Positions 3,058 through 53,428 of a DNA stretch of 64,000 nt are shown here, one piece after another. Position 1 is the stretch's first letter. Every line of letters starts with the position of its first letter. Made by a program: the position numbers and the translations under genes. The stretch comes from Kangiella profundi (lineage in GTDB: Bacteria > Pseudomonadota > Gammaproteobacteria > Enterobacterales > Kangiellaceae): positions 124,001 through 188,000 of the forward strand of contig NZ_CP025120.1 in the NCBI RefSeq assembly GCF_002838765.1. Direction: 5' to 3'. The notes beneath the pieces were generated by a model. The model was not told where the DNA came from and searched no databases. It was given only the letters and a program-made list of their open reading frames with translations.

Positions 3058-3086
3058 TTGTAATCAATTTTTCTAACTGGTATAAC
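3058..3086 (+). promoter_or_regulatory. predicted sigma70 promoter of first subtilase
   Basis: TTGTAA (3058-3063), 17-nt spacer, TATAAC (3081-3086). The expected start near 3093 falls at the base of the terminator-like hairpin at 3094. Predicted by eye and supported only by the equivalent arrangement before the four other proteases. Confidence 0.45.
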
Positions 3087-3093
3087 CAGACCC

Positions 3094-3150
3094 AGCCCTA
3101 ATCTCTTAAGACGGAACTCGTGAGTTAGTCTTCGGAGTTAGGGCTTTTTT
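3094..3150 (+). terminator. intrinsic terminator between uvrD and first subtilase, or leader attenuator
   Basis: The AGCCCTAA arm (3094-3101) pairs with TTAGGGCT, with an inner AACTC/GAGTT hairpin, followed by a run of six T. It can terminate uvrD read-through. Because the best promoter for the following protease lies just upstream (3058-3086), the same structure would also be the first thing transcribed in that mRNA, 34 nt before the start codon. Confidence 0.8.
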
Positions 3151-3170
3151 ATTAACTAAAAAATATAGCT

Positions 3171-3180
3171 AAGGGGTAGT
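3171..3180 (+). promoter_or_regulatory. shared extended ribosome-binding element (copy 1)
   Basis: AAGGGGTAGT, 3 nt before the ATG at 3184. The same element, AAGGGGTAGGT or a one-base variant, precedes all five protease genes and fixes their starts. Confidence 0.6.
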
Positions 3181-3183
3181 TAA

Positions 3184-5484
3184 ATGTCTTTTAAATTAAA
3201 GATAGCTTGCGCCGCAACACTATTGGCAATGGGCGTCACCGCTCATGGAGCTAATGGTCTCGGTAATCAGGCAAATAAAGCGCCAACCACAGCAAAAGGT
3301 AAAGAGCGCGTAATCATTAAATTTAAACCAGGGCATGGAAGCAATGTTAAATCCGCAGCGGCAAGAGCTGGCGGTGAACTTAAAGTAGACTTAAAAAAGC
3401 ATGATGCTTTTGCCATTGAGGTCCCTACTCAGGCATTGAAAGGTTTACGCAATAATCCAAATGTTGAATACATCGAGCCCGATCTGACTCGTAAGTTGCT
3501 ATCAACCAATCTTGATACTACTGAGGTTGAGCCATGGGGTCTGGCGCGAGTTGAAGCTGATTTAGTTTCTGATGCCAATGCTGGTAACCGTACCGTGTGT
3601 ATCATCGACTCAGGTTATGACATTAACCATTCTGATTTAAGTTCGAATAGCGTTTCTGGTACCAATGATTCAGGAACCGGTAACTGGTATCAGCCAGGTG
3701 GTTCACATGGTACTCACGTGGCGGGAACTATTGCCGCAGTGGCTAACGGCTCTGGTGTTGAAGGGGTATTACCCAATGCGAATGTTAATTTGCACATCAT
3801 CAAAGTCTTCAATGAGTCTGGTTGGGGTTACTCATCAGATTTGGTTAGTGCAGTAGACGACTGCGTTGCAGCCGGTTCGAATATCATCAGTATGAGTTTA
3901 GGTGGCAGCGGTTCCTCAACGACTGAGGGCAATGCCTTCTCTAACTACTACAGCAATGGCGTATTAAGCATCGCTGCAGCAGGTAACGGTGGTGACACTT
4001 CATACTCATACCCTGCGTCTTATGATGATGTCGTATCAATTGCGGCAGTTGACTCTGGTAATCAGCATGCCAACTTCTCACAACGAAATGATCAGGTTGA
4101 GCTAGCCGGCCCAGGTGAAGCAATCCTTTCAAGTGTTGCAATTGGTGACGGTTACTTAGGCCAGCTTGTTGTAGGTGGTGTGGATTATTTCGACAATGGC
4201 GTGGTTCCACAGAACTTCTATAACAGTAGCCTACAGTTTGATAATGGTGCCAACGTAGGCTCTGCTTCTGGGACATTAGGTGTTTGTTCAACCTCTGGTA
4301 CCAGTTACAGTTGTCCTAGCATGGTGGGCAAAGTATGTTTGGTTCAACGTGGTGAAAACCAGGCTGATAACACCAGCTCAACAGAAAACAACTATCCAGA
4401 ATATCGTGCGGTAAATGCCTGTATGGATGCCGGTGCTTCAGGCGTAGTAGTTTACAGTAATGCTGCTCGTCCTGGCTTACAGCACCCATTCCTGATCGAT
4501 TTCGACAGTAAGATTGGTACCACACCAGTTGTTTCGGTTGACCGTGCAACAGGTTTGGAGCTTGCTAATCGCGCTGGTCAAAGCGTGACTATGTCGAAAG
4601 ACGGTGGTCAGGATTGGGAATATTACAATGGTACGTCAATGGCAACGCCACACGTCAGTGCGGTAGCTGCATTGGCCTGGAGCTTCCATCCGAGTTGTAC
4701 CGCAGCAGAAATTCGCAGTGCGCTACAAGCAACTGCCGTGGATCTGGATGTATCAGGTGTTGATAACAAAACAGGTTACGGTCTGGTGAAAGCTCAGGCT
4801 GCTGTAGACTATTTGAATGCTAGCAGTTGTGGCGGCGGTACAGAACCACCACCAAGTGGTAATGAATTGAGCAAGGGCGTAGCACTAACCAACCTAAGCG
4901 GTGCTCAGGGTTCTGAAACCTTCTACACATTTGAAGTTCCAGCAGGAGCTGCTGATCTGACTTTTGATATCAGCGGCGGTTCAGGCGATGCTGATTTGTA
5001 TGTCAGATATGGCGCGGACCCAACAACCTCAAGCTATGACTGTCGTCCTTACAAAGGTGGCAACACGGAAAATTGTAGTTTCACTTCACCACAGGCCGGA
5101 ACATGGCATGTCATGATTCGTGGCTATCAGGCATATTCAGGTATGAGCCTGGTCGCAGACTATGTTGATGGTGGTTCTACTCCAATCAATGACACCTTAA
5201 GCGAGTCAAACCTATCAGGTGCGCAAGGCAGCAAGCAGTACTTCACGCTTGACGTTCCAGCCGGGCGTTCAGTGGTTGATATCGTGATGTCAGGTGGTTC
5301 TGGCGATGCAGACTTATATGTTAAGTTCGGTTCTGAACCAACAACTTCAAGCTATGACTGTCGTCCATATAAGTACGGTAATAATGAGTCGTGTTCACTC
5401 ACAGCTCAGGAAGGTACTTATTACATCATGCTTAGTGGCTACAGCAGCTATTCAGGTGTTAGTCTGGAAGGAAGTTCAAACTAG
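3184..5484 (+). CDS. secreted S8 subtilisin-like protease with I9 propeptide, PA insert and two PPC domains
   Basis: The 766-aa pre-pro-enzyme has a Sec signal peptide (residues 1 to about 23). An inhibitor-I9-like propeptide follows (about 40-105, RVIIKFK to VEYIEPD). The S8 catalytic domain has Asp142 (IIDSG), His175 (HGTHVAGT) and Ser485 (GTSMATP), with AAGN supplying the oxyanion Asn. About 200 residues between His and Ser include a protease-associated (PA) insert (near 330-460: VCLVQRG ... AGASGVVVYSN). Two C-terminal PPC beta-sandwich domains (about 555-650 and 663-762) share the phrase SGGSGDADLYV and are normally removed during maturation. Expected to be an extracellular endoprotease that degrades protein for nutrition; the substrate is not readable. 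Its signal peptide starts MSFK like the next two proteases. It lies in its own transcription unit. Confidence 0.93.
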   Translation: MSFKLKIACAATLLAMGVTAHGANGLGNQANKAPTTAKGKERVIIKFKPGHGSNVKSAAARAGGELKVDLKKHDAFAIEVPTQALKGLRNNPNVEYIEPDLTRKLLSTNLDTTEVEPWGLARVEADLVSDANAGNRTVCIIDSGYDINHSDLSSNSVSGTNDSGTGNWYQPGGSHGTHVAGTIAAVANGSGVEGVLPNANVNLHIIKVFNESGWGYSSDLVSAVDDCVAAGSNIISMSLGGSGSSTTEGNAFSNYYSNGVLSIAAAGNGGDTSYSYPASYDDVVSIAAVDSGNQHANFSQRNDQVELAGPGEAILSSVAIGDGYLGQLVVGGVDYFDNGVVPQNFYNSSLQFDNGANVGSASGTLGVCSTSGTSYSCPSMVGKVCLVQRGENQADNTSSTENNYPEYRAVNACMDAGASGVVVYSNAARPGLQHPFLIDFDSKIGTTPVVSVDRATGLELANRAGQSVTMSKDGGQDWEYYNGTSMATPHVSAVAALAWSFHPSCTAAEIRSALQATAVDLDVSGVDNKTGYGLVKAQAAVDYLNASSCGGGTEPPPSGNELSKGVALTNLSGAQGSETFYTFEVPAGAADLTFDISGGSGDADLYVRYGADPTTSSYDCRPYKGGNTENCSFTSPQAGTWHVMIRGYQAYSGMSLVADYVDGGSTPINDTLSESNLSGAQGSKQYFTLDVPAGRSVVDIVMSGGSGDADLYVKFGSEPTTSSYDCRPYKYGNNESCSLTAQEGTYYIMLSGYSSYSGVSLEGSSN

Positions 5485-5501
5485 ACTCTATAGTCAAAAA
5501 G

Positions 5502-5529
5502 AAAAAGGTCGCTTAGGCGGCCTTTTTTT
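5502..5529 (+). terminator. intrinsic terminator of first subtilase
   Basis: AAAAAGGTCGC / GGCGGCCTTTTTTT hairpin with a T-run, 17 nt after the stop codon. Confidence 0.85.
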
Positions 5530-5719
5530 ATAGGCAAACAAATCAGATAAAAAACAATCACCAACAATAACGGTTTGTGATAAATCTATTTAGACCTAAA
5601 AAAACTAATCTTATAGTTATAGTTAATTAAATAGCTCTTATTAATTAATGCCGATATTTTTTACACTTTTGTCGATACTAACTGATACATTCCTGATAGG
5701 TTTCTTTACATTGATGATA

Positions 5720-5750
5720 AATTTAGCTAATTAATGGGATTAGCTAAATT
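5720..5750. repeat. perfect 12-bp inverted repeat just upstream of -35
   Basis: AATTTAGCTAAT (5720-5731) and ATTAGCTAAATT (5739-5750), 7-nt spacer, ending 5 bp before the TTGACG box. The position suits an activator or repressor operator. The third protease keeps only a degenerate right arm. Confidence 0.55.
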
Positions 5751-5755
5751 ATTCC

Positions 5756-5785
5756 TTGACGACTTTTTAATCGCTTTGCTTAAAT
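5756..5785 (+). promoter_or_regulatory. predicted sigma70 promoter of second subtilase
   Basis: TTGACG (5756-5761), 18-nt spacer, TTAAAT (5780-5785). The block from the -35 to just past the -10 is nearly identical to 8177-8206 before the third protease although the surrounding DNA has diverged, which supports function. Confidence 0.65.
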
Positions 5786-5795
5786 CGGACCCACC

Positions 5796-5855
5796 TCATT
5801 TGCGGTAACTGGTCTTTTTAGATCGGAAGCTTAAGCAAATGATTGAGTAATCATT
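5796..5855 (+). promoter_or_regulatory. 5' leader with two mutually exclusive hairpins
   Basis: TCATTTGC (5796-5803) pairs with GCAAATGA (5835-5842). An alternative hairpin, AATGATT (5838-5844) with AATCATT (5849-5855), uses part of the same right arm. The first stem begins about 3 nt after the predicted transcription start. No T-run follows, so it looks more like a stability or switching element than a terminator. Confidence 0.45.
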
Positions 5856-5895
5856 ATTTAGATAGATTAATTAATGATTGAAAGAATTATCCAGA

Positions 5896-5906
5896 AAGGG
5901 GTAGGT
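5896..5906 (+). promoter_or_regulatory. shared extended ribosome-binding element (copy 2)
   Basis: AAGGGGTAGGT directly before the ATG at 5907. It decides this start over the in-frame upstream ATG at 5874. Confidence 0.65.
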
Positions 5907-7982
5907 ATGTCTTTTAAAGTGAAGATGGCTTGCGCGGCCACATTATTAGCGCTAGGTTCAGCTGCACACGCTGAGCGTGTAATCGTTTCTTATGACAGCA
6001 ATGGCCAAGGCCTTAAGAAAGGTCATCAAGTAAAAGTAGAAGGAAAAGGCTGGTTTGCCGTTGAGCTTGATGAGAATGGTAAAAGTGCCATCCGCGGTAA
6101 GAAAGGCTTCAAATCAATGGAAGCTGACTACAAGCGTTTCCCAATGGCTATCTATAATGATGATGCAGGTGATCCTGCAAGCCAACAATTGACGCCATAT
6201 GCAATCTATCAGTCACAGGCTGATCAGCTAACATTGCAACCTGGACAAAAAGTGTGTGTTATCGATTCAGGTATCGCAGGCGGCCAAGGCGAAACTGGCG
6301 GCAAGAACTTTGACTTTGATTGGTCAGTAATCACTGGTGACAGCGATTCGGGTACTGGCGACTGGTTCACTGACGGTGGCCCACACGGTACTCACGTAGC
6401 TGGTACGGTTGGTGCAGCTGATAATGGCTTTGGTGTTGTAGGTATGGCGCCTGGCGTTCCAATGCACATCATCAAGGTATTCAATGCTTCTGGTTGGGGC
6501 TACTCATCTGACTTAGCTTACGCTGCAGAAAAATGTACTCAGGCTGGCGCGAACATCATCACCATGTCGCTAGGTGGTGGCGGTGCAAACTCAGTAGAAG
6601 AGAATGCATTCAACACTTTCACTAACAATGGTGGATTAGTTCTAGCAGCAGCTGGTAACGACGGCAACAACGTTCGTTCTTACCCAGCGGGCTATAAATC
6701 AGTCATGATGATTGGTGCTAACGATGCTAACAACAACATCGCGAGCTTCTCTCAGTTCCCATCAAACACTAAAACATCAGGTCGTGGCGGTAATCAAACC
6801 ACAGAAACTGATGATGGTTTTGGTGTAGAAATTACGGCTGGTGGTGTTGATACGCTATCGACTTACCCATCGGGCGGCGCAACCATTGCCAGCTTAACGG
6901 TTGACGGTGTTGGTGTTCCTACAGCAGCAACTGACAATACAGGTTCAGTATCAGGTTCAACCTACTTCATGGGTACAGCTGAAGCGACTGATTCAGGTGC
7001 GAACGGTAAAATTTGTGTCATCGACCGTGGCAACATTTCTTTCGCTGACAAGATCAACAACTGTGGCAACTCAGGCGGTATCGGTGCGGTTGTAATCAAC
7101 AACGTAGCTGGCGAAGGTGTTATCTACATGGATATTACGGGTGTTACCACCAATATCCCAGCTGTAGGTACAGCCTATGAAGATCGATCTGCAATCGTTG
7201 GCGCAACTAATGCGAGCATCAATTCAGGTGCAAGTGATTACGGTTATATGAGCGGTACTTCAATGGCAACTCCAGGTGCGGCCGGTGTAGCAGCTCTAGT
7301 ATGGTCAAACTTCCCAAGCTGTACTGGTACTGAAATCCGTGAAGCGTTGAAAGCAACTGCGGAAGATCAGGGCGCACCAGGTCGTGATGACTACTTCGGT
7401 TACGGTATCGTTAAAGCGAAGAACGCTTATGATTACTTACTAGCTAACGGTTGTGCTGGTGGTGATACTGATCCAACTGATAACGCACCAGTAGCTAGTT
7501 TTGATTATTCTTGTACAGAACTAAGCTGTAGCTTTACGGATGGTAGTTCGGACGACAATGGCATTGCCACTTACAGCTGGAACTTCGGTGACGGTAATTC
7601 AAGTACAGCTGTTAATCCTAGTCATACCTTTGCTGCTGATGGTACTTACACTGTGACATTAACAGTAACCGATTCAGCAGGTCAGTCTGATAGCACTTCT
7701 CAAACTGTGACTGTTGCTGCAGGTGGTGATACAGGCGGCGATACCATCGACTTGAGCGCGAATGGTTATAAAGTAAAAGGCCGTCATAATATTGACCTGG
7801 CTTGGAGCGGCGCTACTTCAAATGACGTTGATGTCTATCGTAATGGTTCATTGATTGCTACAACAGCAAACGATGGTGCATTCACAGATTCAACTAACAA
7901 TCGTGGTGGTGCTGTTTATAACTACCAACTTTGTGAAGCTGGTACTTCAACTTGTTCTTCAGAAGTAACCGTTGTCTTCTAA
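5907..7982 (+). CDS. secreted S8 subtilisin-like protease with PA insert, PKD and C-terminal beta domain
   Basis: 691 aa. The ATG at 5907 is chosen because the signal peptide MSFKVKMACAATLLALG then aligns with the first and third proteases and the shared ribosome-binding element sits directly upstream. A short I9-like pro-region follows (RVIVSYDSNGQG ... FPMAIYND). Catalytic residues: Asp120 (VIDSG), His160 (HGTHVAGT), Ser452 (GTSMATP). A PA-type insert (about 355-410, GKICVIDRG ... IGAVVINN) lies between His and Ser. Downstream are a PKD domain (about 525-605, WNFGDGNSS, GTYTVTLTVTD) and a fibronectin-like module with a Cys pair (about 615-691). The protease part is nearly identical to the next gene; the PKD domain is present only here. 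It should be an exported endoprotease whose PKD/beta modules bind substrate or surface. Confidence 0.93.
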   Translation: MSFKVKMACAATLLALGSAAHAERVIVSYDSNGQGLKKGHQVKVEGKGWFAVELDENGKSAIRGKKGFKSMEADYKRFPMAIYNDDAGDPASQQLTPYAIYQSQADQLTLQPGQKVCVIDSGIAGGQGETGGKNFDFDWSVITGDSDSGTGDWFTDGGPHGTHVAGTVGAADNGFGVVGMAPGVPMHIIKVFNASGWGYSSDLAYAAEKCTQAGANIITMSLGGGGANSVEENAFNTFTNNGGLVLAAAGNDGNNVRSYPAGYKSVMMIGANDANNNIASFSQFPSNTKTSGRGGNQTTETDDGFGVEITAGGVDTLSTYPSGGATIASLTVDGVGVPTAATDNTGSVSGSTYFMGTAEATDSGANGKICVIDRGNISFADKINNCGNSGGIGAVVINNVAGEGVIYMDITGVTTNIPAVGTAYEDRSAIVGATNASINSGASDYGYMSGTSMATPGAAGVAALVWSNFPSCTGTEIREALKATAEDQGAPGRDDYFGYGIVKAKNAYDYLLANGCAGGDTDPTDNAPVASFDYSCTELSCSFTDGSSDDNGIATYSWNFGDGNSSTAVNPSHTFAADGTYTVTLTVTDSAGQSDSTSQTVTVAAGGDTGGDTIDLSANGYKVKGRHNIDLAWSGATSNDVDVYRNGSLIATTANDGAFTDSTNNRGGAVYNYQLCEAGTSTCSSEVTVVF

Positions 7983-8005
7983 TAAAGTTTTGTAAAGAAA
8001 TGAAT

Positions 8006-8031
8006 AAGCGGACTTCGGTCCGCTTTTTTTT
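8006..8031 (+). terminator. intrinsic terminator of second subtilase
   Basis: AAGCGGAC-TTCG-GTCCGCTT with a long T-run, 23 nt after the stop; UUCG tetraloop. Confidence 0.92.
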
Positions 8032-8050
8032 GCGTATTCGCCTTGTATGC

Positions 8051-8068
8051 TAATGCATATCTGCATTA
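8051..8068. promoter_or_regulatory. operator-like palindrome TAATGCA-N4-TGCATTA
   Basis: TAATGCA (8051-8057), TATC, TGCATTA (8062-8068): perfect 7-bp arms, about 108 bp upstream of the -35. The same palindrome with a different 4-bp core lies upstream of the fourth protease at 10271-10288. Confidence 0.5.
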
Positions 8069-8176
8069 ATAGTGCAAAATACAGGCAGGTTCATGATACA
8101 AACTGATACACAGGTGTAAGAAAGTGTTACATTTCGCATAAAACAAACTTATTTATACAATTAGTAAAATTATTGC

Positions 8177-8206
8177 TTGACGACTTTTTGATCACTTTGC
8201 TTTAAT
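8177..8206 (+). promoter_or_regulatory. predicted sigma70 promoter of third subtilase
   Basis: TTGACG (8177-8182), 18-nt spacer, TTTAAT (8201-8206). Conserved with 5756-5785. Confidence 0.65.
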
Positions 8207-8213
8207 CGTTATC

Positions 8214-8272
8214 GCCTCATTTGCTATGGATGGATATTTGAGATTTGCATCTATAGCAAATGGGGCTTTTTT
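8214..8272 (+). terminator. leader intrinsic terminator (candidate attenuator) before third subtilase
   Basis: A 14-bp stem (8214-8227 with 8253-8266, one G-U pair) is followed by six T. It starts at the predicted transcription start and ends 105 nt before the ATG at 8378, well past the previous gene's own terminator. ATTTGC occurs twice (8219-8224 and 8243-8248) and either copy can pair with GCAAAT (8256-8261), giving an alternative fold that would break the terminator. Confidence 0.6.
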
Positions 8273-8363
8273 GTGTCCACAAGAATTCCAAGACAAGTTC
8301 TTCGAAATATTCTGAAAGATATCAAAAGAAATAATATTTTTTCCAAGACATAATTTAACCAAC

Positions 8364-8374
8364 GAGGGGTAGGT
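8364..8374 (+). promoter_or_regulatory. shared extended ribosome-binding element (copy 3)
   Basis: GAGGGGTAGGT, 3 nt before the ATG at 8378. Confidence 0.6.
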
Positions 8375-8377
8375 TTA

Positions 8378-10204
8378 ATGTCATTTAAAGTAAAGATGGC
8401 TTGCGCAGCCACATTATTAGCGCTAGGTTCAGCTGCACACGCTGAGCGCGTTATTGTTTCATACGATAGTAACGGTCAAGGCCTTAAGAAAGGCCATCAA
8501 GTAAAAGTAGAAGGTAATGGCTGGTTCGCCGTTGAGCTTGATGAGAATGGCAAAAGTGCTATTCGTGGCCAAAAAGGCTTCAAGTCAATGGAAAAAGATT
8601 TCCAACGTTTCCCAATGGCTATCTATAACGATGATGCTGGCGACCCAAGCGCGCAACAGCTAACTCCATATGCTGTTTATCAATCACAAGCTGACCAACT
8701 AGTACTTCAGTCTGGCCAGAAAGTATGTGTGATCGACTCAGGTATCGCAGGCGGCCAAGGTGAAACTGGCGGCAAAAATAACGACTTCAACTGGTCAGTA
8801 ATCACTGGTGACAGCGATTCAGGTACTGGCGACTGGTTCACTGACGGTGGTCCGCACGGTACTCACGTAGCGGGTACAGTTGGTGCTGCTGATAACGGTA
8901 TCGGTGTTGTGGGTATGGCTCCTGGCGTTCCAATGCACATCATCAAAGTATTCAACGCTGCTGGCTGGGGCTATTCATCTGACCTAGCATACGCTGCAGA
9001 AAAATGTACTCAAGCTGGTGCGAACATCATCACCATGTCACTAGGTGGCGGCGGTGCAAACTCTGTTGAAGAGAATGCATTCAACACTTTCACTAACAAT
9101 GGTGGCCTGGTTCTAGCTGCGGCTGGTAACGACGGAAATAACGTTCGTTCATACCCAGCGGGTTACAAATCAGTGATGATGGTTGGTGCTAACGATGCTA
9201 ACAACAACATCGCAAGCTTCTCTCAATTCCCATCAAACACTAAAACTTCAGGTCGTGGTAAACAAGCTACTACTGAAACTCATGACGGTTATGGCGTTGA
9301 AGTAACTGCAGGTGGTGTTGATACTCTTTCAACTTACCCAGCTGGCGGTGCTGTGATTGCTAGCCTTACAGTAGATGGCGTTGGCGTACCAACGGCAGCA
9401 ACTGACAACACCGGTTCAGTATCTGGTGCGACTTACTTCATGGGTACAGCTGAAGTGGTTGATTCAGGCGCTAACGGTAAAATCTGTGTGATTGACCGTG
9501 GTAACATTTCTTTCGCTGACAAAATCAACAACTGTGGCAACTCAGGCGGTATCGGTGCGGTTGTAATCAACAACGTTGCTGGCGAAGGCGTTATCTACAT
9601 GGACATTACTGGTGTAACTACTAGTATTCCTGCAGTTGGCACGGCATTTGAAGATCGTGCAGCTATCGTTGGTGCAGCGAATGCCAGCATCAATTCAGGT
9701 GCAAGCGATTACGGTTACATGAGCGGTACCTCAATGGCGACTCCAGCAGTAGCGGGTGTTGCAGCTCTAGTTTGGTCTAATCACCCAACCTGTACTGGTA
9801 CTGAAATCCGTGAAGCCTTAAAAGCAACTGCGGAAGATCAGGGCGCAGCAGGTCGTGATGACTACTTCGGTTACGGAATCGTTAAAGCCAAAGCAGCGAG
9901 TGATTACATCACTGCAAACGGTTGTCAAGGCGGCGGTACTGAACCACCACCACCACCATCAGGCGGTGATCTACAAGCTTCAGGTTCTCGTGCTAAAGGC
10001 GGTAGCCAGTTGGATCTAGTATGGAGCGGTTTCTCAGGCTCTAACGTTGACATCACTATTACTTCAGGTGGCTCTACGGTCCTACAAGATACACAAGTGA
10101 ATGACGGTGCAGTTTCTTATTCTGGCGCAAGCAAGAATACGACTTACACTGTGACAATTTGTGAGTCTGGCACAACAACCTGTGCAGCATCATTCCAATT
10201 ATAA
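8378..10204 (+). CDS. secreted S8 subtilisin-like protease with PA insert, paralogue of preceding gene
   Basis: 608 aa. The signal peptide is identical to that of the preceding gene and the S8/PA part is nearly identical over its length. Catalytic Asp120, His160 and Ser452 fall at the same residue numbers, so the two are a recent tandem duplication. They differ after about residue 515: here a Pro-rich linker (EPPPPPPSGG) leads straight into an 80-residue beta domain ending in a Cys pair (TVTICESGTTTC), with no PKD module. Expected role: exported endoprotease. Promoter and leader start sequences are also conserved with the preceding gene, so the duplication included the promoter, after which the leader structure diverged. 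Confidence 0.93.
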   Translation: MSFKVKMACAATLLALGSAAHAERVIVSYDSNGQGLKKGHQVKVEGNGWFAVELDENGKSAIRGQKGFKSMEKDFQRFPMAIYNDDAGDPSAQQLTPYAVYQSQADQLVLQSGQKVCVIDSGIAGGQGETGGKNNDFNWSVITGDSDSGTGDWFTDGGPHGTHVAGTVGAADNGIGVVGMAPGVPMHIIKVFNAAGWGYSSDLAYAAEKCTQAGANIITMSLGGGGANSVEENAFNTFTNNGGLVLAAAGNDGNNVRSYPAGYKSVMMVGANDANNNIASFSQFPSNTKTSGRGKQATTETHDGYGVEVTAGGVDTLSTYPAGGAVIASLTVDGVGVPTAATDNTGSVSGATYFMGTAEVVDSGANGKICVIDRGNISFADKINNCGNSGGIGAVVINNVAGEGVIYMDITGVTTSIPAVGTAFEDRAAIVGAANASINSGASDYGYMSGTSMATPAVAGVAALVWSNHPTCTGTEIREALKATAEDQGAAGRDDYFGYGIVKAKAASDYITANGCQGGGTEPPPPPSGGDLQASGSRAKGGSQLDLVWSGFSGSNVDITITSGGSTVLQDTQVNDGAVSYSGASKNTTYTVTICESGTTTCAASFQL

Positions 10205-10225
10205 TAACGATATTTGGTAAGTTTG

Positions 10226-10250
10226 AGCCCCGCTTCGGTGGGGCTTTTTT
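10226..10250 (+). terminator. intrinsic terminator of third subtilase
   Basis: AGCCCCGC-TTCG-GTGGGGCT followed by a T-run. Confidence 0.92.
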
Positions 10251-10270
10251 ATGCACGGATGAAAAGAAAT

Positions 10271-10288
10271 TAATGCAAATATGCATTA
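10271..10288. promoter_or_regulatory. operator-like palindrome TAATGCA-N4-TGCATTA (second copy)
   Basis: TAATGCA (10271-10277), AATA, TGCATTA (10282-10288), 45 bp upstream of the -35 of the fourth protease. It matches 8051-8068 in both arms. Confidence 0.5.
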
Positions 10289-10333
10289 GAAAAACTTATT
10301 GGTATGACCTCTACACAAAATGTGAAAATTTGT

Positions 10334-10362
10334 TTGATTGTATCTATATATGTTGATATAAG
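10334..10362 (+). promoter_or_regulatory. predicted sigma70 promoter of fourth subtilase
   Basis: TTGATT (10334-10339), 17-nt spacer, TATAAG (10357-10362). Confidence 0.5.
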
Positions 10363-10366
10363 TACT

Positions 10367-10401
10367 TGGCTTTCATTAGAAAAAATAATATATGAAAGCC
10401 A
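10367..10401 (+). promoter_or_regulatory. hairpin at predicted 5' end of fourth subtilase mRNA
   Basis: TGGCTTTCAT (10367-10376) and ATGAAAGCCA (10392-10401) form a perfect 10-bp stem starting at about +1. No T-run. Confidence 0.5.
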
Positions 10402-10430
10402 GTAGATTTAACTTAATTAATATACACACT

Positions 10431-10441
10431 AAGGGGTAGGT
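10431..10441 (+). promoter_or_regulatory. shared extended ribosome-binding element (copy 4)
   Basis: AAGGGGTAGGT, 2 nt before the ATG at 10444. Confidence 0.65.
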
Positions 10442-10443
10442 AT

Positions 10444-11577
10444 ATGAAAAAAACGCTAATCGCTAGCGCTGTTGGTATGGCCGTAGTGTCATTCTCAGCT
10501 TCAGCAACACAACCCACCTATTCATCAAATGATGAATTGAATGTTCAAAATCGTTGTATCGTCAGCTTCCATAACAACATTGACGCTTCCCAGGTAAAAG
10601 GGCTGGCAAAAGGCTTAGCGCAACGAGCAAATGCTTCTGTTCGTCACGTTTATCAGAACTCAATCAAAGGCTTTACCGTGAATGCACCATGTCACGCAGC
10701 AGAAAAAGCCTTTGGCGGTGATATGAATGTTAAAAGTATGAGCCCAGATGGTGTGGTTAGCGTTAGCTTTAAAGGCAAGCCAGGTGGTGGCGGTGGTGGC
10801 GGTAGCCAGACTACGCCATGGAGTGTCACGCGTGTTGGTGGTCCTGTCAGTGGTGCTGGTTATACGGCGTGGGTCATTGATACCGGTATTGATGTAGACC
10901 ACACTGACTTGAGCGTTGATGCCAACCGTGGCTTCTCCGTTTTTACATCAGGTCGTGATGCGGGTGTTGACGATGGTAACGGTCACGGTACACACGTAGC
11001 CGGTACTATTGCAGCGCTAAACAACTCGCAGGACGTGGTTGGCATTGCTGCTGGTGCTACTGTAGTTCCGGTCAAAGTATTGGATTCGCGTGGTTCAGGT
11101 TCTTATTCGGGTGTTATTGCTGGTGTTGATTATGTTGCAGCAAATGCTTCTTCAGGCGATTGTGCCAATATGAGCCTCGGTGGCCCAGTAAGCCAGGAGT
11201 TAGACGATGCGGTTAAAGCTGCAGCGCAAAATTCAGGTGCTTACTTTGTCTTGGCTGCGGGTAACGACGGTGATCATGCAAACAACCATTCTCCAGCACG
11301 CGCTAACGGAAATCGTGTTTATACCATTTCGGCAACTGACTCAAATGACAATATGCCGTACTGGTCAAACTATGGTAATCCACCAGTAGACTATGCTGCT
11401 CCTGGCGTAAGTATTCTTTCTCTTCGTGCTGGTGGTGGTACTACGACTATGTCTGGTACTTCAATGGCATCTCCAGCAGCCTGTGCTGTGATCATGCTTA
11501 AAAACGGTAACCCATCAACTGATGGAACCGCCGGTAATGATCCAGACGGCAATCCAGATCCAATTATCCATCTATAG
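10444..11577 (+). CDS. secreted S8 subtilisin-like protease, small form
   Basis: 377 aa. Sec signal peptide (residues 1 to about 21, ending SASA). A cysteine-containing I9-like pro-region follows (VQNRCIVSFHNN ... VKSMSPDGVVSVSF), then a Gly-rich linker (about 113-122) and a compact S8 domain with Asp146 (VIDTG), His181 (HGTHVAGT), AAGND and Ser340 (GTSMASP). Several cysteines (NAPCHAA, SGDCANMS, SPAACAV) may form disulfides after export. It ends soon after the catalytic Ser helix with a short Asp/Asn/Pro-rich tail and has no accessory domain. Nearly identical to the next gene. Expected to act extracellularly as an endoprotease. Confidence 0.93.
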   Translation: MKKTLIASAVGMAVVSFSASATQPTYSSNDELNVQNRCIVSFHNNIDASQVKGLAKGLAQRANASVRHVYQNSIKGFTVNAPCHAAEKAFGGDMNVKSMSPDGVVSVSFKGKPGGGGGGGSQTTPWSVTRVGGPVSGAGYTAWVIDTGIDVDHTDLSVDANRGFSVFTSGRDAGVDDGNGHGTHVAGTIAALNNSQDVVGIAAGATVVPVKVLDSRGSGSYSGVIAGVDYVAANASSGDCANMSLGGPVSQELDDAVKAAAQNSGAYFVLAAGNDGDHANNHSPARANGNRVYTISATDSNDNMPYWSNYGNPPVDYAAPGVSILSLRAGGGTTTMSGTSMASPAACAVIMLKNGNPSTDGTAGNDPDGNPDPIIHL

Positions 11578-11605
11578 ATAAGTTTGGATACTTTGGGGTA
11601 GAAAC

Positions 11606-11632
11606 AGGCGCTCAACATGAGCGCCTTTTTTT
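11606..11632 (+). terminator. intrinsic terminator of fourth subtilase
   Basis: AGGCGCTC-AACA-TGAGCGCCT followed by T7. Confidence 0.92.
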
Positions 11633-11789
11633 ATGAATAAAGAAAATAGTGCACTAATCAGGGCTGCTAAGCTTTGCTAACTAATGATACAAAACGCTAC
11701 AAATGAAGTGGTTTTTGTAAAGCATGTCGACACATTTAGCATTATTTTTAATTATTGGTTTGTCCAGTTCACAAGAATAAAAATAATGA

Positions 11790-11818
11790 TTGCGCAAGGA
11801 AAACTTGATTGCTATAAA
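11790..11818 (+). promoter_or_regulatory. predicted sigma70 promoter of fifth subtilase
   Basis: TTGCGC (11790-11795), 17-nt spacer, TATAAA (11813-11818). Confidence 0.5.
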
Positions 11819-11826
11819 AATGCAAT

Positions 11827-11853
11827 CTGTTCACTCGAACATAAAATGAACAG
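11827..11853 (+). promoter_or_regulatory. hairpin at predicted 5' end of fifth subtilase mRNA
   Basis: CTGTTCA (11827-11833) and TGAACAG (11847-11853), starting at about +2. No T-run. Confidence 0.45.
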
Positions 11854-11902: not shown

Positions 11903-13039
11903 ATGAAAAAATCTCTAGTCGCAAGCGCCGTTGGATTAGCGGTACTTTCCACTTCCGCAATGGCCGTTGAACCAACCTTCTCATCAAACGATGAACTGAA
12001 TGTTCAAAACCGTTGTATCGTAACTTTCCACGACAATCTTGACGCTTCACAAGTAAAAGGTCTTGCCAAAGGTTTAGCCCAACGCGCTAACGCATCCGTA
12101 CGCCACGTCTATAAAAACTCAATAAAAGGCTTTACGGTGAATGCGCCATGCCATGCGGCAGAAAAAGCTTTCGGCGGTGACATGAACGTTAAAAGCATGA
12201 GTCCAGACGGTGTTGTCAGTGTTAGCTTTAAAGGCAAGCCAGGCGGCGGCGGTGGTGGTGGCGGTGGCCAAACCACACCTTGGAGCGTAACTCGGGTTGG
12301 TGGTCCAGTCAGTGGCGCAGGTTATACAGCCTGGGTCATTGATACCGGTATTGACGTTGACCACACTGACTTGAACGTTGATGCAAGCCGCGGTTTTACA
12401 GCATTTACTAAAGGTAGAGATGCTTCTGTAGATGATGGTAACGGTCATGGCACACACGTTGCCGGTACTATCGCAGCACTAAACAACTCGCAGGATGTTG
12501 TCGGCGTTGCAGCTGGTGCTACAGTAGTACCGATTAAAGTATTGGATTCGCGTGGTTCAGGTTCATACTCAGGCGTTATCGCCGGTATCGACTATGTTGC
12601 GGCAAATGCAAATTCTGGTGACTGTGTAAACATGAGTTTAGGTGGTCCTGCTAGTTCTGATGTTGATAATGCAGTAGAAGCAGCAGCGCAAAGCTCAGGT
12701 GCATACTTTGTGGTTGCAGCAGGTAATGATGGTAGTCATGCCAGCAATTACTCGCCAGCACGCGCCAGTGGTAACCGTGTTTATACCATTTCAGCAACTG
12801 ACTCAAATGACAACATGCCTTACTGGTCAAACTATGGTAACCCACCAGTAGACTATGCAGCACCGGGTGTTAGCATCCTGTCTCTAAGAAATGGTGGCGG
12901 TACTACGACCATGTCAGGTACTTCAATGGCATCTCCAGCAGCTTGTGCTGTGATCATGCTGAAAAACGGTAATCCATCAACCGATGGTACAGCCGGAAAT
13001 GATCCAGACGGCAATCCAGATCCGATTATTCATCTGTAA
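11903..13039 (+). CDS. secreted S8 subtilisin-like protease, small form, paralogue of preceding gene
   Basis: 378 aa, collinear with the preceding gene except for a longer Gly run in the propeptide-catalytic linker. Catalytic Asp147, His182 and Ser341. Signal peptide MKKSLVASAVGLAVLSTSAMA. Substitutions cluster at surface-type positions of the catalytic domain (for example NVDASRGFTAFTKGRDAS), while the pro-region and C-terminal tail are unchanged. That is the pattern of a recent tandem duplicate with possible change in specificity. It has its own promoter and terminator. Confidence 0.93.
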   Translation: MKKSLVASAVGLAVLSTSAMAVEPTFSSNDELNVQNRCIVTFHDNLDASQVKGLAKGLAQRANASVRHVYKNSIKGFTVNAPCHAAEKAFGGDMNVKSMSPDGVVSVSFKGKPGGGGGGGGGQTTPWSVTRVGGPVSGAGYTAWVIDTGIDVDHTDLNVDASRGFTAFTKGRDASVDDGNGHGTHVAGTIAALNNSQDVVGVAAGATVVPIKVLDSRGSGSYSGVIAGIDYVAANANSGDCVNMSLGGPASSDVDNAVEAAAQSSGAYFVVAAGNDGSHASNYSPARASGNRVYTISATDSNDNMPYWSNYGNPPVDYAAPGVSILSLRNGGGTTTMSGTSMASPAACAVIMLKNGNPSTDGTAGNDPDGNPDPIIHL

Positions 13040-51052: not shown

Positions 51053-53314
51053 CTATCTTGAAGTTATTCTCTGCGGATGGTCATGAGAGCTCCACCTGTC
51101 GACAAATTCAAATAACTCATCGACCGATAAAGGCTTGCTAAACAAATAGCCCTGAATTTGATAACAACCATGCAGCTTAAGCAAGTTGAGTTGCTCTACA
51201 GTCTCGACACCTTCAGCAACCACCTTTAGGTCGAACTCTTTGCCGATATCAATAATAGCCTTGCTTAATGCCAGATCAGACTGACTGGCTGGCAGTGATT
51301 TTATGAAGGTACGATCGATTTTGATGGTATCAATAGGCAGATATTTTAAATAGGTTAATGATGAGTAACCGGTTCCAAAGTCATCTATCGCTATTGAAAT
51401 ACCGTGATTACGCATGGCTTCCAGTGGGTTGTCCCCATCAGAAAATAACTCAAGTGAAATATGCTCTGTAATTTCTATTTGCAGAATGTTGGCAGGAATA
51501 TTGTAACTTTTCATCAGTTGAAAAAACTGCTTGATGAATACTGGGTCATGCAAATTCAAACTGGACAGATTGATAGCGAAGCGTGGCGCTGGTAGTCGCG
51601 ATTTAAGCCATGAATTAATGTAACTGAACAGAGAATGCAATAACCAGATTGATAGCCTGCGAATCAGATGATGTTTCTCAGCCAAGGGGATAAAAATCTG
51701 TGGCGAAATTGATTTTTGCAACGCCTTGGAGTACCAGCGAGAGAACACTTCAACCCCGGTGATTTCGTTGGTGGAGCAATCAATTTGTGGCTGGAAAGCT
51801 AAAGTAAGCTCGTCATTATGTAGGGCATTGTGGAAAGCTTGAATCAACTCGGATTCTGTTGCCAGTTGTCTGAGGACGTTATTGTGGTATTGAGTGTAAT
51901 GTGAGCTTGAGTTCTGCAAAGTAGACAGCGCCATATTGGCTTTATTAATAATATCAAAAACACTGGCATCTTCTGGATATCTGGCACTGGCAATATTAAT
52001 AGCCGTCAAAATGGTGTGCTGTTCCTGATTCTCATCTTCGATGTGGAAAGGAGCGTTAAGTGCTGACTCAAGGTGCTGTAATCGGCGTTCGATAAAGGTG
52101 TTGTTTGGAGTGTTTATAAAAGGAATAAAAAGTGCAATCTGGTCATGTGAAACAGAGCCAACGATGTAATCCCGCACAAAGCTATTCTTTATTCGTTTAA
52201 GAGTCTTTCGCTGAATGTCTAGTACCATTGTTTCAGAGTAGCTGGATAGCAGTGAGGAGATATCCTTAAAGTGAACTAAGATACATAGCCCATGCTTGAG
52301 ATTTGAGCGAGTCAGCTTGTGCATCTGATCGATAAAGGTGTTCTTATTCGGCAAGTTAGTGTGGTAGTCAGTCTGCATTTTGCGCAGGATTGGCTTATAC
52401 ACTCTTCTGGCAAATATCTTTTGCAATAGAATGGTGGTCAAAGCGATTGCCATAAAAAGTAGCAATATGCTGGTCAGGTTTTGATAGACCGGTGCTAGCA
52501 ATACATTCTTTTCAACTTCAGCGGTAAGCCACCAGTTAGTATGTTCCAATGGGTAAAATACGACAATTGAATTGTCACCGGTAAACTCTGTAATTGAAGT
52601 GGCACTTAAGGATTTCTTTAGCTGGTCGCGTGACAGGCTTGAAGAGAAGAACTCCAGCGTTGTGTCTTCGGTGCTGGGGTCAACTGGCCTAAGAACTGCA
52701 TCGCCATTACTCTTGATTAGATTGAATTGACCGTTGTAGCTAACGGGAGTGGAGAGAATCTTCCGGTGGATATCATTGAAACTGACATCACCCGTAACAA
52801 CACCATAAAACTGATTACCTTTAATAATCGGGGCAGTAAAAGCGAGATAAGTTGTCGTGTAATCATCAACACCGAGGTAGGGCTCTGAAATTGTGGGTTC
52901 CATGGCCTGTTTGCCGCTTCGATACCAGGGGCGCAAGCGAGGGTCATAACCGTCGGGGATGGGCCAGGGGTTTGAAATATAGAAACCATTTTCAAGCCCA
53001 TAGCCTAAGTACTGTAATAATCCAGTTTCGGCAATGCGTTCAAAGTATACCTGGGGAATTGATTCGCGCTGGTCGGGAGCTTTATTCGCAATTTCGCTAG
53101 CTAGTCCAGTAACAAGACCTAATCTTGAGGACATCCATTCATCGAGGGTGTTGCCCGTTAGTTCTGATTGATGAGTGAGTTGCTGAAGTGCATTTTCTAT
53201 GAGTTGTTCGCGTTGAGCAATGTAGGTAAATGCGGCAAATATGACAAAGTTAATCCACAGGAGGGCAAGAAAGCTCCATAATAGCTTTTGATCATTTGAT
53301 AGTTTGCGCAGCAT
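51053..53314 (-). CDS. membrane c-di-GMP phosphodiesterase: dCache sensor, degenerate GGDEF, EAL
   Basis: 753 aa from ATG 53314 (SD AAGGAAG); 22 further upstream codons are open but less likely. One membrane helix (about 10-32), a periplasmic dCache domain (about 40-280, DPRLRPWYRSG, GVVTGDVSF), a second helix (about 290-310), a GGDEF-like domain whose signature is replaced by SVSHDQIA, and an EAL domain. In the EAL domain the name motif reads EVF, but the metal/catalytic set (Glu of EVF, NLSS, EITEH, DDFGTGYSS, KIDRTFI, AEGVET, QGYLFSKP) is kept. So cyclase activity is probably lost and phosphodiesterase activity kept. It lies next to the pilus motors, convergent with pilU. Confidence 0.92.
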   Translation of the reverse strand: MLRKLSNDQKLLWSFLALLWINFVIFAAFTYIAQREQLIENALQQLTHQSELTGNTLDEWMSSRLGLVTGLASEIANKAPDQRESIPQVYFERIAETGLLQYLGYGLENGFYISNPWPIPDGYDPRLRPWYRSGKQAMEPTISEPYLGVDDYTTTYLAFTAPIIKGNQFYGVVTGDVSFNDIHRKILSTPVSYNGQFNLIKSNGDAVLRPVDPSTEDTTLEFFSSSLSRDQLKKSLSATSITEFTGDNSIVVFYPLEHTNWWLTAEVEKNVLLAPVYQNLTSILLLFMAIALTTILLQKIFARRVYKPILRKMQTDYHTNLPNKNTFIDQMHKLTRSNLKHGLCILVHFKDISSLLSSYSETMVLDIQRKTLKRIKNSFVRDYIVGSVSHDQIALFIPFINTPNNTFIERRLQHLESALNAPFHIEDENQEQHTILTAINIASARYPEDASVFDIINKANMALSTLQNSSSHYTQYHNNVLRQLATESELIQAFHNALHNDELTLAFQPQIDCSTNEITGVEVFSRWYSKALQKSISPQIFIPLAEKHHLIRRLSIWLLHSLFSYINSWLKSRLPAPRFAINLSSLNLHDPVFIKQFFQLMKSYNIPANILQIEITEHISLELFSDGDNPLEAMRNHGISIAIDDFGTGYSSLTYLKYLPIDTIKIDRTFIKSLPASQSDLALSKAIIDIGKEFDLKVVAEGVETVEQLNLLKLHGCYQIQGYLFSKPLSVDELFEFVDRWSSHDHPQRITSR

Positions 53315-53428
53315 TTCTTCCTTGGCTATCTCCTTGATAATAAAACCAAAGCTGTTACCCAACGGTGCTTTGGTCAGCAAGCCTGTTCTGATTATAAGCA
53401 GGTTTCCGGCGAATTGACAAATATCAAA

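Follow-up and report, generated by a model that had tools for sequence, protein, structure and literature searches.

The S8 protease genes and their leader hairpins

Five Peptidase_S8 open reading frames (ORFs), which encode secreted proteases, are arranged head to tail, downstream of a UvrD-type helicase gene, in a 64,000-nucleotide (nt) stretch of the 2.65 Mb genome of the marine bacterium Kangiella profundi (contig NZ_CP025120.1, positions 124,001 to 188,000; this whole stretch is hereafter called the window), and the subject of this report is the hairpin that lies upstream of each of them, close behind a predicted promoter. All five genes, hairpins and predicted promoters are on the forward strand. 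Gene 1 (3184..5484) encodes a Peptidase_S8 domain together with a PA domain and two PPC stretches, gene 2 (5907..7982) Peptidase_S8, PA and PKD domains, gene 3 (8378..10204) Peptidase_S8 and PA domains, and genes 4 (10444..11577) and 5 (11903..13039) a Peptidase_S8 domain; the start of gene 2 was placed at 5907, after AAGGGGTAGGT, whereas the ORF caller had 5874. A lifestyle of extracellular protein degradation with tandem clusters of S8A peptidases has been described for Kangiella, and the cluster has already been published (PMC6000758); the words 'promoter' and 'transcriptom' are absent from the main text of that paper.

A first-pass annotation of this DNA had listed five leader hairpins, and all five are present as written there. 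Gene 1 is preceded by a 5'-terminal hairpin followed by T6 (3094..3150, stem 3094-3145; -24.5 kcal/mol) and gene 3 by a 5'-terminal 18-bp hairpin followed by T6 (8214..8272, stem 8214-8266; -30.4 kcal/mol); both have the form of complete intrinsic terminators, as had been claimed for these two, and the combination of stem and T6 is found in genes 1 and 3 only. The 5'-terminal hairpins of gene 2 (5796..5842; -17.6 kcal/mol), gene 4 (10367..10401; -11.8 kcal/mol) and gene 5 (11827..11853; -5.1 kcal/mol) have no U-tract, and that of gene 5 is weak and not significant alone. When each complete leader was shuffled 60 times by dinucleotides, the observed energy was reached in 0, 1, 0, 0 and about 21 of 60 shuffles for genes 1-5, respectively; that is, genes 1-4 beat their shuffled leaders and gene 5 does not. 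The leader terminators of genes 1 and 3 were not listed by a terminator scan that allowed only loops of 3-8 nt, and a search of the whole window with Rfam 15 at gathering score returned a single tRNA and no known riboswitch or leader RNA family.

The S8 genes of the window each end in a 3' terminator of their own, with a stem of 8-9 pairs (13 after gene 1) and a loop of 3-4 nt, unlike the leader hairpins. Hairpins 2-5 as the terminator of the preceding gene are therefore ruled out, each of them being preceded by a separate 3' terminator of another type.

Predicted promoters and position of the hairpins

The promoters are predictions, made with an independent scoring script whose weights were chosen by the analyst. 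The predicted promoter of gene 1 (3058..3086) consists of a -35 TTGTAA at 3058-3063 and a -10 TATAAC at 3081-3086 with a spacer of 17, and this pair recurs in the orthologues L113 and L115; the other predicted promoters are TTGACG-18-TTAAAT for gene 2 (5756..5785), TTGACG-18-TTTAAT for gene 3 (8177..8206; here also from conservation), TTGATT-17-TATAAG for gene 4 (10334..10362) and TTGCGC-17-TATAAA for gene 5 (11790..11818). Between the predicted -10 and the stem lie 7, 10, 7, 4 and 8 bases in genes 1-5, respectively; the folding program's own stems of genes 4 and 5 extend outward and leave 0 and 2 bases. The earlier claim that each hairpin stands just after the best -35/-10 pair is supported in that the stems begin 4-10 nt after an independently predicted -10, but a simpler consensus scan missed all five, and the 14 promoter-like sites that it listed were not more than expected (20.5).

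Seventeen regions of the same genus were searched for S8 ORFs by BLAST, which gave 56 including the window's five, and the analysis covered 49 leaders in 15 Kangiella genomes, namely the window and 14 of these regions, in groups corresponding to genes 1-5 (n = 11, 5, 15, 10 and 8). The first-pass annotation had held that the position of the stem is the same between paralogue groups and had looked to relatives for its conservation. Within the genus, the strongest hairpin of the whole leader begins no more than 13 nt from the predicted -10 in 41/49 leaders, compared with 9.0 expected if placement were uniform (for gene 5 of L115 the orthologous promoter was forced in this count), so that the position relative to the predicted start is conserved; strict constancy fails in four gene-3 leaders that are taken up below. 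When no promoter was forced, the best hairpin was near the -10 in 40/49 S8 leaders and in 21 of the 64 controls that were left, out of 117, after a length filter (Fisher p 2e-7).

The hairpins near the start are also strong. One of -15 kcal/mol or better is found in 26/49 S8 leaders and in 10/117 controls from the same genome, and the terminator form near the start in 20/49 and 3/117, respectively; by group of genes 1-5, the terminator form is seen in 9/11, 0/5, 10/15, 1/10 and 0/8 leaders. When compared with shuffles of the whole leader, 32/49 leaders are at 5% or better. An earlier set of 63 controls contained three of seven set-aside S8 leaders, which were its strongest hairpins, and the rates therefore use the 117 own-genome controls. 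These seven of the 56 ORFs, all Peptidase_S8 by Pfam, were scored separately: a near-start stem of -15 kcal/mol or better is present in 3/7, one of -8 or better in 5/7 and a terminator in 0/7, and the sequence of these stems is unlike that of the cluster. Outside Kangiella, a near-start hairpin of -15 or better was found in 3 and a terminator shape in 1 of 77 S8 homologues at 71 loci, drawn from the best 80 of 155 loci (four fragments of <300 codons were dropped, and start codons were assigned by rule).

Pairing within the hairpins

A single stem was retained by RNAalifold in both alignments, with two-sided changes in 5/14 and 4/12 pairs. All 9 aligned gene-1 type leaders can make 7 of the 8 outer pairs, and in the gene-3 type alignment 86.9% of cells are paired, a share that drops to 32.7-44.9% if the partners are slid. 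In L114, the leader of gene 2 has all 18 pairs of its stem intact (-27.2 kcal/mol), and TTGTGA stands where the T6 would be; a stem can thus outlast its U-tract.

Two further elements were considered in the gene-3 leader. An alternative ATTTGC/GCAAAT hairpin in the loop (5 leaders) has -4.5 to -5.1 kcal/mol, compared with -28.9 to -31.1 kcal/mol for the terminator; this far weaker structure is the single alternative scored as a cis antiterminator, for gene 3 only and with no systematic search made. A leader peptide was rejected by eye: its ATG has no ribosome site, the peptide is not kept in L113, and the ATG is absent in L122 and L123. In the gene-3 leaders of L122-L125, short palindromes such as GTGATGTAGATCAC are seen between the -10 and the terminator.

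Motifs upstream of the predicted promoters

Two motifs were read by eye upstream of the predicted promoters. Motif A, a direct repeat, is present on the reverse strand upstream of gene 2 (TGTATCAGTTAGTATC, 5674..5689) and of gene 3 (TGTATCAGTTTGTATC, 8095..8110), and it also occurs upstream of gene 5 at about 11684-11703. Across the leaders, the offset of motif A (TTTGTAWCG-N4-GTAWCAA-like) relative to the -35 takes the value -84 in 9 leaders and either -45 or -55 in 9 others, and the latter two offsets differ by about one helical turn. The strict pattern has only 2 matches in the organism's own genome, preceding genes 2 and 3; by eye, motif A is also seen upstream of the S8 gene L144 of the same genome, as a possible regulon site. 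Motif B is present on the forward strand upstream of gene 4 (TATTGGTATGACCTCTA, 10297..10313) and gene 5 (TATTGGTTTGTCCAGTT, 11753..11769), in both cases 37 nt before the -35. This motif (AATTGGTNNNACCAATT-like) is a dyad, TTGGTNNNACC/TCC, that recurs across the genus and may resemble operators of the FadR/PdhR type; in 13 of the 18 group-4 and group-5 leaders, as well as in one leader of group 3, its distance to the -35 is exactly 37 nt. It should be noted that both motifs were read from the same leaders in which they were scored, which makes the scores circular and leaves the fixed distances as the informative part; several motif B scores are at or below the 95th percentile of the null. The two motifs suggest at least two upstream regulators.

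Alignment of 11 leaders of the gene-3 type shows little or no variation in the -35 TTGA and the -10 TG-N-TTTAAT, whereas the spacer drifts. The predicted promoters are supported by this conservation of -35 and -10 over a drifting spacer and by the fixed distances of motifs A and B from the -35.

Occurrence beyond the cluster

A covariance model, R1, was built from the 11 gene-3 type leaders and used to search 20 Kangiella genomes; a first look gave about 750-2100 candidates per genome, of which the best 150 were scored. At E<=0.1 there were 28 matches among the candidates scored, every one of them at an S8 locus: the 11 training leaders, 11 other S8 leaders (six of gene-1, three of gene-2 and two of gene-3 type) and 6 on the opposite strand of the same hairpins. 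R1 detects the gene-1 leaders of six other genomes; among the best 150 candidates per genome it missed the window's own gene-1 leader and groups 4 and 5, and the result shows specificity more than completeness. In 20 other genomes of the family (best 94 candidates scored) two weak matches were obtained (E 0.017 and 0.023); by eye, neither these two nor three Kangiella matches with E 0.2-0.9 lie directly before a recognisable S8 gene. Weak matches that do precede S8 genes were found in G004 (E 0.12) and G019 (E 0.43; the second S8 gene of L120), and further weak matches in G006 (E 0.81) and G003 (E 1).

Part of the S8 leaders is, on its sequence, descended from a common ancestor leader: the leaders of some groups are related because the hairpins of genes 2 and 3 have CATTTGC/GCAAATG in common and because a model of the gene-3 type detects gene-1 leaders. 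The earlier statement that the hairpin sequences differ between paralogue groups therefore holds only in part.

The same genome has seven further S8 loci, of which five were scored (L144-L148; L143 and L154 were left out), and none is clear. The scoring script gave no strong stem close to the predicted starts of L146, L147 and L148. At L145, a hairpin of -17.1 kcal/mol with a T-run lies 5 nt downstream of a predicted -10 that scores weakly (6.8); this hairpin may be the terminator of the gene before. At L144 the script found none, but by eye a hairpin is seen after another possible -10. Palindromes like AGGGGNNNNCCCCT are present upstream of L146, L147 and L148, where control, judged by eye, may differ from that of the cluster.

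Two leaders of other genes were also noticed. On the reverse strand of the window (53314-53420), a gene encoding dCache and EAL domains has a strong predicted TTGTCA-18-TATAAT promoter followed, after 7 nt, by a -20.8 kcal/mol hairpin with the core ACCAAAGC/GCTTTGGT and then TTTATT; non-protease leaders are therefore not wholly free of the hairpin-at-start design. In L220 (1114-1175), CTGACA-18-TATAAT runs into a terminator before a gene that by eye resembles tryptophan 2,3-dioxygenase, and this terminator may equally belong to a gene that ends at 1078.

Discussion

The leader design is real and conserved in the genus. Its general kind is known, but the terminator that two of the five genes carry, predicted to be coupled to the start, is unusual. 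We infer that the common element is a 5'-terminal stem and that termination was added to it in two lineages. The first-pass annotation had proposed a common regulatory logic, either attenuation or a 5' stem that blocks decay by RppH and RNase E. A common logic is supported by the conserved position, the concentration, among the leaders searched, at S8 genes of this genus and the maintained pairing, but attenuation fits genes 1 and 3 only; the two options are not mutually exclusive, and a blocking stem would, by its position, fit all five genes.

The reading that we prefer, with a probability of about 0.5, is a dual one, in which the 5' stem would protect the mRNA and would double as a start-coupled attenuator in genes 1 and 3. 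RppH and RNase E depend on single-stranded 5' ends (PMC3997798). A sigma-70 type promoter, probably regulated from the conserved upstream sites, would put +1 at or a few nt before the 5' arm, and the stem common to all five genes would hide the mRNA 5' end from RppH and RNase E and so give long-lived protease mRNA. In genes 1 and 3, the stem with its T6 would stop many of the polymerases 57-59 nt from the start and release a short stable RNA, and protease mRNA would come solely from the polymerases that read through; expression of these two genes probably needs such read-through of the hairpin. Because the 5' arm of the terminator would be the first RNA made, no upstream RNA could act as antiterminator, and control, if any, would come from outside or from the start site used; read-through could be set by a factor acting in trans, by the choice of start site or by a fixed leak.

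Leaders of this general kind are known. In start-site switching of the pyrC type, a hairpin at the 5' end depends on the exact start nucleotide and controls translation, whereas the Kangiella hairpin could control termination. The gene aprE encodes subtilisin. In E. coli ompA and papA and B. subtilis aprE, a stem-loop is likewise located at or near the mRNA 5' end, where it stabilises the mRNA, and the reference list of the same article contains a title on the importance of a 5' stem-loop for the stability of the aprE leader mRNA (PMC3997798). Compared with the ompA/aprE type, the stems of Kangiella genes 1 and 3 are turned into terminators by an additional U-tract, and the design is family-wide within one genus; stabilisation by the Kangiella stems would follow by likeness. 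In Listeria, the 5' untranslated region (UTR) of the metalloprotease gene mpl, Rli51, also combines premature termination, a short RNA and expression by read-through (PMC11394854). Rli51 has 121 nt, three stem-loops and a predicted antiterminator (PMC11394854), whereas the Kangiella leaders have a single hairpin, which begins at about the predicted +1, and showed no antiterminator; by analogy, Rli51/mpl is the nearest counterpart met. Leaders with premature termination have also been reported from 3'-end sequencing in E. coli and Pseudomonas, with 3' ends within 5' UTRs (PMC7815308 and PMC8297930); a search gave no comparable data for Kangiella.

Several observations weigh against the dual reading. 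The leaders are related by descent, as orthologues and paralogues, and the counts are therefore not independent and the p values descriptive. The controls (21/64) themselves exceed the uniform expectation of 12.2, and the promoter chooser is therefore mildly biased towards sites before hairpins, so that the controls, and not uniformity, are the fair yardstick. Covariation is modest: 43/500 shuffles reach its score, and 332/500 have as many pairs changed on both sides. Hairpin 5 is weak, and with z<=-2 in 0/8 leaders its group has no excess stability. In four species (L122-L125) the terminator of gene 3 begins 25-26 nt past the -10, and here the position is not constant. Lastly, the interval from uvrD to the gene-1 hairpin showed no separate terminator, and this hairpin may therefore also serve uvrD.

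It is unlikely, though it comes first among the alternatives, that the leaders are attenuators throughout, with termination as the selected property and the stems of genes 2, 4 and 5 as decaying former terminators. The prevalence of the terminator form in groups 1 and 3 (9/11 and 10/15, plus the four group-3 leaders at 25-26 nt) agrees with this, as does the connection that R1 makes between gene-1, gene-2 and gene-3 type leaders; however, stems without a U-tract have been kept, some of them unrelated in sequence (groups 2 and 4; the S8 leaders in L120, L121 and L127), and attenuation does not require a stem at +1. We also consider it rather improbable that the stems are purely stabilising and the U-tracts leaky and without regulatory role. 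The start stem is the sole feature common to all five genes, and 5' structure stabilises mRNA in known cases (PMC3997798); however, at least five T directly follow the stem in 9/9 aligned group-1 and 14/14 aligned group-3 leaders, a count in which the rows were anchored on the T-run and in which 2/11 group-1 leaders (without this hairpin form) and 1/15 group-3 leaders were left out.

A more specific proposal, which is doubtful at present, is that transcription begins at the very base of the terminator stem, so that a start shift of a few nt, or a factor on the just-initiated polymerase, would alone decide between a dead-end RNA of 57-59 nt and mRNA, and an antiterminator RNA would not be required. 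Jointly with this, and with the same doubt, the unit of promoter and stem would have been duplicated with the genes, and some copies would have lost the U-tract and become plain 5' caps.

It is very unlikely that the promoters are misplaced and that the real ones lie downstream of the hairpins, which would then merely insulate the genes. In 13 terminator leaders, the distance from the end of the terminator stem to the ATG is only 34-49 nt, and the -35 of any downstream promoter would therefore fall within the hairpin; the best downstream candidates in these leaders score 5.4-7.0, compared with 7.9-9.2 upstream. With so short a gap and such weak candidates, these genes could hardly be transcribed except through the terminator, and the upstream -35/-10 pairs are conserved and have upstream motifs at fixed distances from the -35. 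Gene 3 of the window is looser and gives this alternative some room, having 111 nt from terminator to ATG and a downstream candidate of 7.3 as against 8.7 upstream. Finally, that the inverted repeats are protein-binding dyads in the DNA at the start site is highly improbable. The short palindromes just after the -10 in L122-L125, which may resemble a CRP site, would suit it, but loops of up to 17 nt, U-tracts and stem sequences that differ between groups speak against it, as does an outer U-G wobble retained in 10/10 distinct rows of the gene-3 type, which fits RNA and not a DNA dyad.

In the literature searched, no paper was found on Kangiella together with an attenuator or transcription start site; outside this scope falls one study, cited by the Kangiella S8A cluster paper, that reportedly concerns transcription of protease genes under metal ions. 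If the dual reading is true, a hairpin at the mRNA start that is genus-wide and specific to one gene family would be a new layer of control for the S8 proteases of Kangiella, none having been found described in the papers searched. Since some leaders have a U-tract and others lack one, they make up a natural series that could separate mRNA protection from attenuation inside one gene family.

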